IMG/VR virus record: IMGVR_UViG_3300031673_000164
Location: 1-41,042 of that record
Origin: a virus
Reading direction: 5' to 3' (one strand)
DNA length: 41,042 bases
Below, piece after piece: positions 29,868 through 33,568 of the stretch (position 1 is the first letter of the stretch; each line of letters starts with the position of its first letter). The translations under genes were made by a program, and so were the position numbers. The notes under the pieces were generated by a model, which had not been told where the DNA came from, ran no database searches, and saw nothing but the letters and a program-made list of their open reading frames with translations.

Positions 29868-31241
29868 ATGGCAGAAGACACGAAGGTTGACCTGATGGGT
29901 GAGGCTGGCGTCAGCGGACTACAGGTGTCCGGCGGCCTGCCTAGCGACCAGCCAATGAGGCAGCTCAAGGGCACCCTGGCTGTGAAGGTCTGGACGGAGA
30001 TGAGCCGCTATGACCCCGTGGTGGGCGCTGGCCTGTTCGCCATCGAGATGCTCGCCCGTCAGGTGCCGTGGCGCGTGGAGGCGGGAGGTGACGGCCCCCA
30101 GGCCGCGGAGCAGGTCGAGTTCGTGGAGGGCTGCATGGAGGACATGAGCCATTCGTGGACGGACATGCTCGGTGAGATCCTGACCTTCCTCGTCTACGGC
30201 TGGGAGTGGTCCGAACTCGTCTACAAGAAGCGCGCGGGTCCGGTCAAGGACTCGCCCGGCTCCTCGAGCAAGTACACGGACGGCCGGATTGGCTGGCGCA
30301 AGATCACGGGCCGCTCCCAGGAGACACGCGACCACTTCGTGTTTGACGACTCGAACGGCGTCACGGCCATGGTCCAGCGCGACCCGAACCGGGGGCTGGT
30401 CTACACGATCCCGATTGAGAAGAGTCTGCTATTCCGCACGACGGCGGCCAAGGGCAATCCCGAGGGGCGCAGCCTGCTGGAGCGGGCGTTCACGTCCTGG
30501 TACATGAAGAAGCGCATCCAGGACATTGAGGCCATCAGCATCGAGCGGGGGCCGGGGCTGCCGGTGATGTGGGTTCCGCCGCAGATCACGGCATCGAGCG
30601 CATCGTCGGATGACAGGGCGCGTTATGAGACGTTCCTGCTAACCGCAACGCGCATACGCAACGATGAGATGAAGGGCCTCGTCATGCCGCTGGCCTACGA
30701 CGCGCTCGGCAACAAGCTCTATGACTTCGAGTTGAAGTCCGCCACCGGGGAACAGCGGGTGGACACCGACCCGGTGGTCAAGCGGTATGACCAGCGCATC
30801 GCCGCCACGCTGCTGGCCGATTTCATTCTGCTAGGTACCGATTCGGGCAACCGCGCGCTGAGCACCGACAAGAGCGAGTTGTTCACCATCGCCATGAACA
30901 GCGTGCTGGACGAGGTGGCCGAAACATTCAACCGCCACGCCATCCCACGGCTCATGGCCCTGAACGGGTGGGGCACAGAGGAATGCCCGACCCTGGCCCA
31001 CGGTGGCGTGGAGCGGGTGGACCTGGACGTGCTCGGTACGTTCATCGAGCGGCTGTCCCGGGCCGGTGCCCCGCTGTTCCCTGACGACGTGCTGGAGGAC
31101 CACCTGCGCGAAGCCGCACGGCTGCCTGCGGTACCGGAGGGCGAGCGTGCGCTCCGGCCGCCGCCGCCCATGCCAGAGGCCCCGGCGCCCGTGGTCGTGC
31201 CGGGTGAGCCCGACGTGCCGGGTGAGGAAGCGCCCGCGTGA
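29868..31241 (+). CDS. Portal protein (DUF935/Mu gp29-like)
   Basis: This 457-residue protein follows the terminase after a 49-base gap without clear promoter. Typical segments are MSRYDPVVGAGLFAIEML (about 45-62), WSELVYKKR, a central IPIEKSLLFRTTAAKGNPEG, then LLERAF, SWYMKKRIQDIEAISIER, and a C-terminal FILLGTDSGNRALSTDKSELF. Portals form the dodecameric DNA channel at one vertex. The C-terminus is Pro/Ala-rich. Position between TerL and the gpF-like protein is standard for Mu-like and related head modules. Confidence 0.82.
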   Translation: MAEDTKVDLMGEAGVSGLQVSGGLPSDQPMRQLKGTLAVKVWTEMSRYDPVVGAGLFAIEMLARQVPWRVEAGGDGPQAAEQVEFVEGCMEDMSHSWTDMLGEILTFLVYGWEWSELVYKKRAGPVKDSPGSSSKYTDGRIGWRKITGRSQETRDHFVFDDSNGVTAMVQRDPNRGLVYTIPIEKSLLFRTTAAKGNPEGRSLLERAFTSWYMKKRIQDIEAISIERGPGLPVMWVPPQITASSASSDDRARYETFLLTATRIRNDEMKGLVMPLAYDALGNKLYDFELKSATGEQRVDTDPVVKRYDQRIAATLLADFILLGTDSGNRALSTDKSELFTIAMNSVLDEVAETFNRHAIPRLMALNGWGTEECPTLAHGGVERVDLDVLGTFIERLSRAGAPLFPDDVLEDHLREAARLPAVPEGERALRPPPPMPEAPAPVVVPGEPDVPGEEAPA

Positions 31242-33568
31242 CTTGGCTCGTGAAGGCACGGAAGACGCCGCCACGCATGGACGCGCTCTGGCGCGAAACG
31301 CTCGCCGCCTACGAGCGCATGGGCATAAAGCTGTATCCGGGCATTGAGCAGGCGCTGTTGCAGGCCATGAAGTCCACGAGCATGGCGCGGATCGCCGCCG
31401 CCTTCGAGGCGGGTAACTGGGCGCTGGTCGAGGGCGCGGTGGACTGGCAGACGCTGGCCGCCGCGTTGGGCCAGGAGATGGGCCCCGGGCTGCGCTCGGC
31501 CATGGAGGAGGGCGGCCGCCTCGCCCTGACCCGGATGCCTGGCACGGTCAGCATGGGCTGGCAGGTCATCGACCCGCTCGTGGTCAACTACCTGAACAGC
31601 CACCTCCCGACGCTGATCCGCGAGGTGACGGACGAAACACGGGCAGCGGTGCGACTCGCCACTCGACTGGCCTACGAGAACGGACTCGGTACCCAGGCAG
31701 CAGCTCGGGCCATCCGGTCCAGCATCGGGCTGACGCAGATGCAGGCCCGGGCCGTCACGTCGTTTCGGCAAGGCGTCATTGAGGCGGCCGACCGGGACCT
31801 GGGCGTGGACTACCTGCACGAGCGGTGGGCCATGAGCCGGGACGTGGTGCGGCGCAATGCCCAGGTGACGCTGGCGAACGCCAACCGGCTGGCCGACGCC
31901 TACCAACAGCGGGCCATCACGCAGCGCGCCCTGACCATAGCCAGGACCGAGGCGACCCGAGCCGTGACAGCCGGCCGTTCGGCGTTCTGGACCCAGGCCA
32001 TGCGCGAGGGTGCGCTCAACCCCGAATACCACGAGATCATGTGGCTGGCGTCGCCTTCGGAACGGACATGCGATATCTGTATGCGGCTCCACAAAACGAC
32101 CGTGCCGGTAGGGCAATCGTTCCCCGAGGGCGACCCGCCGATTCATCCGTCGTGTCTACCCGGCGAGGCGGTAGTAGCGCCCCGTGGTCGGATCGTGGGC
32201 GCCACGAAACGGTGGTTTCACGGCGATCTCATCATCCTCCGCTGTGCCGACGCGCTCCCACTCTCCTGCACGCCAAACCACCCGGTACTCACGCGGCACG
32301 GGTGGGTGCCGGCGGGCAGCGTGAATGTAGGTGACGAGATCGCGCACCCTGGTTTCAGTCAGGGGGTCGGGGACGGTGATGGGCAGGACGTAGATGCACC
32401 AGCCCGCATTGAGGATATAGCGGAAGCGTTCCTCCACGCGGGCGAAGTGTCTGCCGAAAAAGTGAAAGTTGCCGCCCCAGATTTCCACGGCGACGGGATC
32501 GAGGGCCAGGTCGCAATTGTAGGGACCTATCGCGAGTTGCTGGACGGGATCGAGCCCGTGGGCCTGGAGCATGCGCATAGCGTCGAGTTCCAGGGGCGAA
32601 ACGTTCGGGAGGGTGCGCTGCTTCCCGAGGGCGATGCTGCACTTATGCAAGAATCCCTGGGGTTGGCCTCGGACAGCATCGTGGGCGGCGGACACCTGGA
32701 AGTGGCGCTGGGTGGGGGTCCGGTGGCTCCACTTCAGCAACTCAGCCTCACTACGCCCCCGGGGTTGAATGCCGAGGGCGAGCAGGCGCTTGCGGATGGT
32801 CCTCCGGTCGACGTGGAGGTGCTTGGCGACCTGCAACTCGGACCACTCCATGTCGCGGTAGAGTTGCGCGATTACCGTTTCGGGCAAGTCCTTCTTCAAA
32901 GCCATCGCCACTTCTCCGGTTGGGTGTATAACCTCGAAACCACTTCAAGTTACTACATCGCAGACGGTTACGCTACCCACAACTGCCGTTGTGACACACG
33001 CATCGTGGACACGCGCAAGACGCGGAGCGCGGCAGGCCAGCGCACGGACGCGCGGATCCGCCAGATCGAGGAAGAACGGGCAGCCCGCGAGAACGCACGA
33101 CGGGGGGCGGCGGCCCGAGGCACAACCGCCCCGGCTGGACTCCGAGAAGCTTTGGCATCGCTTCCCGATGAGCCCGCGACGTTCCGGGCCTTTCATGCCA
33201 CGGCCGGGGAGGAGTTTGATGTCTTCGACCCCGCACGTTTTGGGACGGGAACGGATCCCGGTTACTTGGGACGCGGAGCATATCTATCAACCGACCCGAA
33301 CATCGCCGGAAAGGGTCAGAAGACGCTCGCCTTCGATGTAACCCTGAAGAATCCACTCCGCCTGGCGGCGGACAAGTGGGGCATGGACAAAGAGGCCCTC
33401 GTGAGGGGTGCACTTGATCTGACGCCAACAGCAACCGCGCGTGATGTTACCGCCGCCCTGCACCGCGCCGGGTACGATAGCGTGATGTTGGACTATTCGC
33501 GGCTGGGGTACCACCACCAGGAGATCATGGTGCCGAACCCGGAGGCTGCGCGGCGCGTCAAGCCGTGA
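31238..33568 (+). CDS. Mu gpF-like minor head protein with intein and C-terminal ART domain
   Basis: GTG 31238 gives 776 codons. Residues 1-305 are a gpF/SPP1 gp7-type head morphogenesis domain, with ALTIARTEATRAVTAGR (about 230-246) and TCDICMRLH before PIHPS. The conserved HP-x-C-R-C motif is interrupted at Ser305/Cys306 by a 277-residue intein (306-582) and resumes with CRC at 583. After splicing the protein would be 499 residues. Residues about 645-770 form an ADP-ribosyltransferase-like (ART-PolyVal) domain: FHAT with His653, GRGAYLST with Tyr682, and a final HQEIMV with Glu762, an H-Y-E triad. Minor head proteins can be injected, so the ART may act on host targets. It overlaps the portal by GTGA. 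Confidence 0.88.
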   Translation: MTWLVKARKTPPRMDALWRETLAAYERMGIKLYPGIEQALLQAMKSTSMARIAAAFEAGNWALVEGAVDWQTLAAALGQEMGPGLRSAMEEGGRLALTRMPGTVSMGWQVIDPLVVNYLNSHLPTLIREVTDETRAAVRLATRLAYENGLGTQAAARAIRSSIGLTQMQARAVTSFRQGVIEAADRDLGVDYLHERWAMSRDVVRRNAQVTLANANRLADAYQQRAITQRALTIARTEATRAVTAGRSAFWTQAMREGALNPEYHEIMWLASPSERTCDICMRLHKTTVPVGQSFPEGDPPIHPSCLPGEAVVAPRGRIVGATKRWFHGDLIILRCADALPLSCTPNHPVLTRHGWVPAGSVNVGDEIAHPGFSQGVGDGDGQDVDAPARIEDIAEAFLHAGEVSAEKVKVAAPDFHGDGIEGQVAIVGTYRELLDGIEPVGLEHAHSVEFQGRNVREGALLPEGDAALMQESLGLASDSIVGGGHLEVALGGGPVAPLQQLSLTTPPGLNAEGEQALADGPPVDVEVLGDLQLGPLHVAVELRDYRFGQVLLQSHRHFSGWVYNLETTSSYYIADGYATHNCRCDTRIVDTRKTRSAAGQRTDARIRQIEEERAARENARRGAAARGTTAPAGLREALASLPDEPATFRAFHATAGEEFDVFDPARFGTGTDPGYLGRGAYLSTDPNIAGKGQKTLAFDVTLKNPLRLAADKWGMDKEALVRGALDLTPTATARDVTAALHRAGYDSVMLDYSRLGYHHQEIMVPNPEAARRVKP
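32153..32983 (+). mobile_element. Intein in the minor head protein
   Basis: The intein spans Cys306 to Asn582 of the precursor. Block A is CLPGEAVV with Cys1. Block B contains TPNH (345-348), the T-x-x-H site, followed by VLTRHGWVPAGSVNVGDEI. Blocks F/G read VYNLETTSSYYIADGYATHN, with the penultimate His581, Asn582 and Cys583 as the +1 nucleophile. All class 1 splicing residues are thus present. Splicing would join HPS to CRC at the conserved motif of the host domain. Between blocks B and F (about 180 residues) there is no LAGLIDADG, HNH or other sense-strand endonuclease; that stretch is the antisense shadow of the gene at 32156-32905. Confidence 0.93.
32156..32905 (-). CDS. Antisense EDxHD/Vsr-like homing endonuclease within the intein
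   Basis: The minus-strand ATG at 32905 has GGAG eight bases upstream; a GTG at 32911 is also possible. It encodes 249 residues. An N-terminal helix-turn-helix (LPETVIAQLYRDM, then LQVAKHLHVDRRTIRKRLL) is followed by a nuclease core: SPLELDAMRML with a Glu, QQLAIGPYNCDLAL with an Asp, VAVEIWGGNFHFFGRH with a Glu and two His, and RFRYILNAGW. This order matches the Vsr-related EDxHD homing endonucleases found in phage introns and split-intein loci. A C-terminal region (YRVVWRAGEW) follows. The stop (CTA on +) is the reverse complement of intein codon 2, so the gene lies wholly inside the intein. Confidence 0.85.
   Translation of the reverse strand: MALKKDLPETVIAQLYRDMEWSELQVAKHLHVDRRTIRKRLLALGIQPRGRSEAELLKWSHRTPTQRHFQVSAAHDAVRGQPQGFLHKCSIALGKQRTLPNVSPLELDAMRMLQAHGLDPVQQLAIGPYNCDLALDPVAVEIWGGNFHFFGRHFARVEERFRYILNAGWCIYVLPITVPDPLTETRVRDLVTYIHAARRHPPVPREYRVVWRAGEWERVGTAEDDEIAVKPPFRGAHDPTTGRYYRLAG

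Follow-up and report, generated by a model that had tools for sequence, protein, structure and literature searches.

We describe here a viral locus in which one strand carries an intein and the other strand, over the same bases, a gene for a putative homing endonuclease. The window analysed is a stretch of 41,042 nucleotides (IMG/VR virus record IMGVR_UViG_3300031673_000164, positions 1 to 41,042), and the element interrupts a gene for a head morphogenesis protein. Comparison of related sequences shows that the antisense gene is real, selected, in register with the intein and tied to its splicing motifs. The whole is very probably a two-faced mobile element, with an intein on the plus strand and, on the minus strand, a separate homing endonuclease of helix-turn-helix (HTH) plus Vsr-fold type which spreads both. 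The original prediction, made from the letters of this DNA alone, had pointed out the antisense overlap; that observation is correct and understated. The parts of the locus are as follows.

31238 to 33568, plus strand: MuF / SPP1 gp7-like head morphogenesis (minor capsid) gene, interrupted by the intein (Pfam PF04233, E 1.4e-7; PHROG head morphogenesis, 1.7e-32).
32153 to 32983, plus strand: intein of 277 codons, Cys1 to His276-Asn277 followed by Cys+1 (sequence motifs and AlphaFold2 model).
32270 to 32293, plus strand: block B, TPNHPVLT (T40, N42, H43, P44, L46 and T47 invariant across 40 inteins).
32921 to 32938, plus strand: block F, W-V-Y-N-L-E (the antisense of block F in most relatives is a Shine-Dalgarno-like sequence plus start codon).
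32156 to 32905, minus strand: antisense gene for the HTH plus Vsr-fold putative homing endonuclease, 249 amino acids (ATG at 32903-32905, stop at 32156-32158).
32909 to 32911, minus strand: alternative GTG start, used in the original prediction (open reading frame call).
32914 to 32917, minus strand: GGAG, Shine-Dalgarno-like, 8 nucleotides ahead of the ATG at 32905 (sequence).
32156 to 32158, minus strand: endonuclease stop TAG, the complement of CTA (Leu), which is intein codon 2 (sequence).

The plus-strand frame from 31238 to 33568 is a single uninterrupted open reading frame (ORF), which stays open across the intein. The window therefore does not hold a fractured gene with a split intein, in which the endonuclease gene breaks host gene and intein into separate ORFs. 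Judged by its sequence the insert is a class-1-type intein with all the usual splicing motifs, among them Cys1, block B, block F and a terminal HN followed by Cys. C1, T40, H43 and N277 are invariant and H276 is at least 90% conserved in 40 sequences; Cys+1 is present in the window. In the AlphaFold2 (AF2) model residues 1-70 and 240-277 are well predicted, as are residues 80-105, and residues 145-233 mostly have a predicted local distance difference test score (pLDDT) below 50. The model has the Hint fold, with the Mtu RecA intein as best match (Z 12.7, root mean square deviation (rmsd) 2.0, 109 residues) and the canonical PI-PfuI among the other fold matches. A Pfam search of the sense frame at E up to 1 found no endonuclease family, and hence no canonical in-frame endonuclease domain.

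According to its structural model, the antisense protein looks like an HTH plus Vsr-fold putative homing endonuclease with two recognizable domains.

32777 to 32881, minus strand: helix-turn-helix, endonuclease residues 9-43 (match to HTH_23 at E 0.0028, which does not reach Pfam's own cut-off; the model shows three helices).
32243 to 32608, minus strand: Vsr-fold nuclease domain, residues 100-221 (alignment and structure model).

The AF2 model of this protein has a mean pLDDT of 92.7. Residues 100-221 match Vsr (1cw0) with Z 11.5 and an rmsd of 2.3 over 113 residues, and residues 103-199 match the homing enzyme I-Bth0305I (3r3p) with Z 10.2 and an rmsd of 2.6 over 93 residues; RAP-type mitoribosome proteins, which share the same broad fold, come next at Z 9.6. 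Foldseek gave 3r3p at E 3.9e-3, and a profile search gave 3r3p at E 0.008 and 3hrl at E 0.0062. The Pfam family MTES_1575 is found at E 0.01 or better in 21 of 41 relatives (best 9.8e-8). Y129, D132 and E141 are invariant in 41 endonuclease sequences, and E106 and H148 are at least 90% conserved. E106, D132, E141 and H148, all conserved, are candidates for the E-D-x-H-D residue set.

The endonuclease begins and ends within the splicing motifs. That its stop is complementary to intein codon 2, with the codons of both strands in register, had been claimed from the window and is borne out (TAG opposite CTA at 32156-32158). The overlap had been placed at 32153-32911; its stop end stands, and its start end probably has to be moved, because the ATG at 32903-32905, with GGAG 8 nucleotides upstream, is likelier than the GTG at 32909-32911. 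Counted from this GTG, the minus-strand ORF (32911-32156) would have 251 amino acids.

The same end signals were sought in relatives. Once near copies had been removed, 147 of 197 loci were kept; Cys1 was placed in 145 and block F in 144 of them. The endonuclease stop lies opposite intein codon 2 in 94 of the 145 non-redundant loci. At codon 2, 101 loci have Leu, and 91 of the 97 testable ones use CTA or TTA, compared with 15.4 expected (standard deviation 3.3). In the remaining loci the stop stands opposite a Ser TCA or another Leu, usually within or near block A. At the other end the first ATG or GTG lies opposite the residue preceding V-Y-N-L (position F-0) in 93 of 144 loci and two residues earlier (F-2) in 25. 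The residue before V-Y-N-L is His in 93 loci; among the other 51, His stands two residues earlier in 25 and at neither place in 26. In most loci, then, the start codon faces a block F His. The Leu of block F is encoded by CTC in 80 of 126 loci against approximately 27 expected, a slightly low expectation as loci with fewer than 10 extein Leu were left out. Read in antisense, block F is typically GAGGTT-RTA-NAC-ATG, and a short Shine-Dalgarno-like match is present there in 102 of the 144 loci, a raw count not set against chance. In an earlier set of loci CAT encoded the His of block F in 51 of 63 cases versus 28.3 expected. That set left out the window copy (L001), one locus without an intein match (L015) and one open at a contig edge (L086); 10 near-identical loci were then dropped and 89 kept, of which a narrow block F pattern found 75 and a widened pattern all 89. 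In the window Trp replaces the block F His, and the endonuclease start is shifted by six codons. At locus L205 (1132-1941) an antisense ORF is annotated in GenBank PV360690.1 as hypothetical protein XRA40086.1.

The endonuclease frame matches 120 phage records at E 0.001. A search at E up to 10 added seven records, with Rctr197k and Keitabear among them as true cases; a match to a Rhizobium phage homing endonuclease at E 9 was dismissed as chance level. Twenty-one phage and plasmid loci were fetched. Both frames are open and the codons in register 0 in 20 of them (42-68% GC), the exception being a free-standing copy, and in 20 of the 21 the gene on the strand facing the enzyme is long and annotated, as a head protein or as hypothetical. 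When the intein alignment was used for scanning, the best 80 of 557 relatives all carried the antisense enzyme in register 0, in shortened form at L087. Scanning with the enzyme alignment yielded 20 bacterial-genome and 80 virus-contig loci; 98 of these 100 enzymes face an intein in register 0 and two are free-standing. Among these 98, L128 and L196 are cut by contig ends, the enzyme of L117 is shortened, and at 16 further loci the host ORF is cut by a contig end, with blocks B, F and G still visible. A scan with the first 71 intein residues alone gave an antisense enzyme match at 80 of 80 loci, some of them fragmentary or broken, which is a count of pairing and not of register. The window's own sequence occurs once per set (L023, L123, L209). 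The scans overlap and only best matches were kept; they are therefore no measure of how frequent the arrangement is among all inteins. L110 and L134 were rejected as intein-paired loci: their enzymes are free-standing beside intein-free head genes, and their intein matches are mirror similarity. At locus L022 (619-2025, virus Rctr197k) an intein and antisense enzyme of the same kind lie in a dCMP deaminase gene, at its PCxxC motif; the gene is annotated as a head protein.

The original prediction named two findings that would speak against it, namely related loci in other registers with broken plus frames and a dispensable, unconserved C-terminal antisense part. Register 0 was found in every intein-paired locus of the 20, 80 and 98, and these sets contained neither another register nor a plus frame broken in one. 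The C-terminal part of the endonuclease is conserved and predicted to be folded, and its REY..VW motif occurs in two of the three free-standing copies, which have no intein opposite; its last 15-25 residues, opposite block A, are shortened in some lineages. Taken at the level of sequence, relatives from many phages and bacterial groups preserve this coding on both strands.

How both frames stay open is a matter of codon choice. As had been reasoned from the window, a plus-strand stop can arise in this register only opposite TTA, CTA (Leu) or TCA (Ser), and the codon usage proposed as a check gave none of the three among the 25 Leu and 6 Ser codons of the window endonuclease. By enumeration, register 0 alone among the antisense registers lets any protein sequence be encoded free of opposite stops; in the other two, 5 and 6 of the 400 dipeptides make such a stop unavoidable. 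A design study describes register 0 as less favourable for specifying two proteins at once (PMC5696523), which fits the present case, where the sense side need only stay open over most of its length.

Approximately 0.9 closing codons are expected in the window from extein usage (P ~0.4, hand calculation), so that an open in-register frame is unremarkable there. The window alone cannot tell whether the antisense frame is a gene; what exceeds chance is comparative. In 77 loci the enzymes hold no TTA, CTA or TCA compared with 334.1 expected from extein usage, and the intein side holds 2 compared with 473.9. The frame is open over the enzyme in 129 of 131 loci against 21.5 by chance (mostly GC-rich ones), and both closed exceptions, L087 and L117, carry shortened enzymes. 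The loci of the intein scan were chosen by sense match alone. In-register antisense runs of at least 230 codons also occur in 36 of 113 long-enough exteins; such runs are common in GC-rich exteins, and openness alone therefore proves little there. Below 50% GC, 28 of 30 loci are open versus 0.01 expected, with 10-12 closing codons expected in each, so that these codons are actively avoided. Consequently, the proposal that GC-richness keeps the intein open describes how easily this is achieved in the window and does not hold in general. The free-standing gene of Acinetobacter phage P1068 has 12 TTA, CTA or TCA among its 39 Leu/Ser codons.

The strand under selection was determined from 17 close pairs, in which differences were counted by sense codon position. 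At sense positions 1, 2 and 3 there were 685, 490 and 1294 differences in the exteins, 275, 86 and 247 in blocks A/B, and 935, 336 and 545 in the intein middle. All 17 pairs have more differences at position 1 than at position 3 in the middle, and all 17 show the opposite in the extein. Sense position 1 is antisense position 3, and thus the free position moves from the sense third to the antisense third. Amino-acid identity on the sense and antisense strands is 0.651 and 0.416 in the extein, 0.755 and 0.769 in blocks A/B, and 0.607 and 0.760 in the middle. Mapped over 14 pairs in 15-codon bins, the switch to antisense falls near codon 63 and the change back near codon 243. In one middle bin, over the sense motif DFHGD, the ratio of position 1 to position 3 differences (p1/p3) is balanced at 1.00 and both strands are highly conserved. 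Two stretches can thus be set apart.

32159 to 32338, both strands: stretch constrained twice over, with intein codons 3-62 (blocks A/B) facing the C-terminal part of the endonuclease (p1/p3 0.60-1.04, both proteins conserved).
32339 to 32878, both strands: antisense-driven stretch, intein codons 63-242, largely a disordered linker on the sense side (p1/p3 1.00-2.51 by bin).

By these counts the flanking gene evolves as a sense gene and the intein middle as an antisense one, with blocks A/B under both regimes. The double constraint on blocks A and B had been proposed from the window and is supported by their similar identities on the two strands.

Mobility was examined in Jerseyvirus and relatives, where 407 records match the nctD30 gene. 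The match extends over 80% or more of the gene in 58 of them, and for many of the listed ones it is in two pieces. Phage S106 has the intein-free allele, the sole one checked base by base, with exactly 816 nucleotides fewer than nctD30 at HPN|CRS. The flanks of the two are 92-94% identical over 300 nucleotides and 82-88% over the nearest 60. The sporadic, exact in-frame insertion of class 1 inteins is thus seen in relatives of the window. Between Snoke and nctD30, which belong to different genera, the intein is 94-100% identical in bins of 100 nucleotides and the flanks are 34-86% identical; an identity jump at the intein ends was found in four of six pairs. Decayed enzymes lie under intact splicing blocks at L254 (intein of 172 amino acids; 12 antisense stops including the usual one at codon 2), L272 (2) and L223 (5). 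Free-standing enzymes sit convergently right after intein-free head genes in P1068 (L015/L203), L110 and L134. A split intein at this Acinetobacter phage locus was ruled out, as the head gene is uninterrupted and the enzyme gene follows convergently. On a quick, unrooted tree of the enzyme, with 53 of 131 inner branches open, each of the three free-standing copies has a place of its own. Mirror similarity also occurs: searches with intein profiles gave matches (E 4e-8 and 1.7e-18) on the strand opposite two endonuclease genes that have no intein. As far as sequences can tell, phages that are otherwise alike may have or lack the element, and the intein-free allele, identity jumps, decayed enzymes and three free-standing copies fit a homing cycle.

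A long antisense frame in a GC-rich gene may be nothing but the mirror of conserved sense codons. A further such frame next to the intein served as a control.

30719 to 32146, minus strand: neighbouring antisense ORF of 475 amino acids over the portal and head genes, longer than the endonuclease ORF.

This ORF has no match among 50,697 phage records, in which the head-gene part upstream of the intein has 128; because of this lack of matches it is probably spurious. The endonuclease frame differs from it in having phage matches. That the endonuclease frame, too, is spurious would agree with the chance openness of the window, with the long runs in exteins and with the mirror matches opposite the two intein-free enzyme genes. 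However, this is contradicted by the codon-position test, in which the free position flips to the antisense third in the middle, by codon avoidance in the low-GC loci, by the well-folded model and by free-standing copies, and we consider it extremely improbable. Equally hard to believe is that the sense middle forms a functional intein domain with DFHGD from which the antisense similarity merely follows. D110, F111, H112, G113 and D114 are each at least 90% conserved in 40 inteins, and sense residues 80-105 are well predicted. Yet the DNA for DFHGD, read backwards, encodes the VAVE[VI] strand of the endonuclease, which bears the invariant E141, the middle is better conserved in antisense than in sense, residues 145-233 are predicted to be mostly disordered, and inteins of 172-188 residues lack much of the middle and keep the splicing blocks.

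Somewhat less remote, though still unlikely, is a real antisense gene with another role, such as attack on competing phage genomes or repair, its pairing with the intein being compact packing. Vsr-fold proteins include repair enzymes, and three copies exist outside inteins beside intein-free head genes. Against this role stand the pairing with inteins of 98 of 100 loci found through the endonuclease, presence and absence with exact ends, decay under persisting inteins, and the homing enzyme I-Bth0305I among the nearest fold relatives.

Several results count against the two-faced mobile element itself. Antisense expression, cutting and splicing are deduced from sequence. A Shine-Dalgarno-like match at block F is missing in 42 of the 144 loci, and a promoter scan was unconvincing, with one minus-strand match (9/12) at 34132-34104. 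No Foldseek match in the PDB reaches E 0.001, and Pfam support for the nuclease is weak in the window protein (MTES_1575, E 0.097). That the enzymes contain no closing codon follows in part from the scoring of loci as open ORFs; mirror similarity inflates the intein-side matches opposite the enzyme; and the 17 pairs of the codon-position test, which have some members in common, come from about 9 clades. Of the pairs compared for identity jumps, L007/L009 showed only a weak rise and L047/L068 none (their flanks are also similar), and part of any rise could reflect double constraint instead of transfer.

For a two-faced mobile element we infer transcription, cutting, splicing, a homing step and timing as follows. 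The intein would excise itself from the phage head protein. The endonuclease would most likely be translated from its own antisense transcript, from near block F to intein codon 2, and its target would be the HPN|C site of head genes that lack the intein, where it would cut. Repair off the intein-bearing copy would pass on both functions at once. Register 0 lets the endonuclease keep any amino-acid sequence with the intein frame open, at the price of giving up TTA, CTA and TCA. Opposite transcripts for the two products could be timed apart during infection.

In the host gene, the C-terminal extein of the head protein (residues 652-713; window 33191-33376) matches PHROG 4700, function unknown, at E 5e-4, which suggests an extra domain behind the MuF part. 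At locus L109 (2725-6687) portal, NUDIX and MuF domains are fused in a single 1321-amino-acid ORF which also contains the intein. At locus L120 (1573-4362) a Scytonema head-type protein has a pretoxin HINT domain (residues 72-195) plus the intein (230-554).

The element shares with canonical inteins that have an in-frame homing endonuclease, such as PI-PfuI, the Hint domain, a site at a conserved host residue and DNA shared with a homing enzyme. In contrast to these, its enzyme has a gene of its own, which lies on the other strand with start and stop inside the splicing motifs. In the ShiLan insertion, an out-of-frame HNH gene lies on the same strand in a phage methylase, and its authors detected no splicing domain (PMC11855218). 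In both cases an insert that is open in the host frame conceals a homing enzyme in a different frame; here, however, the enzyme is antisense and of Vsr fold and a splicing domain is present, so that the element is not of ShiLan type. I-Bth0305I and the EDxHD/Vsr-like homing endonucleases (a family named in PMC12350094) also use a Vsr-like nuclease fold for phage homing; the N-terminal HTH and antisense coding over an intein set the present enzyme apart. Antisense homing genes expressed in vivo are described for group I introns of myxomycete rDNA (PMC9548176). There too the homing gene lies opposite its host element, but the partner is an RNA and the gene lies in a peripheral insertion, whereas here both strands code for protein over approximately 750 bp. 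Inteins of Jerseyvirus/Kagunavirus head genes, relatives of that in the window, have been noted before, in accounts whose accessible parts mention no antisense endonuclease (PMC8425127, PMC11162368); the same is true of the available part of a mycobacteriophage intein account (PMC5050341). Among the papers listed by our literature searches there was no report of a phage intein with an antisense endonuclease; one could be contained in a 2025 preprint on non-canonical actinophage inteins (Gosselin et al.), which is cited in PMC11855218.

Long antisense pairs of protein genes are often put down to artefact. The present pair has natural controls, namely free-standing and decayed copies, an intein-free allele and a clean switch in codon-position constraint, and offers a compact model for two genes sharing one DNA stretch. 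Conserved motifs of these inteins, such as DFHGD, may be taken for sense features when they in fact mirror an antisense active site, and endonucleases may go unnoticed in intein catalogues that look in the host frame alone. The locus probably represents a widespread class of phage inteins in which the mobility gene lies wholly antisense to the splicing gene. In this class block F (His-Val-Tyr-Asn-Leu) would read backwards as a Shine-Dalgarno sequence plus ATG or GTG, and codon 2 backwards as the stop; one strand would splice and the other spread, possibly at separate times.

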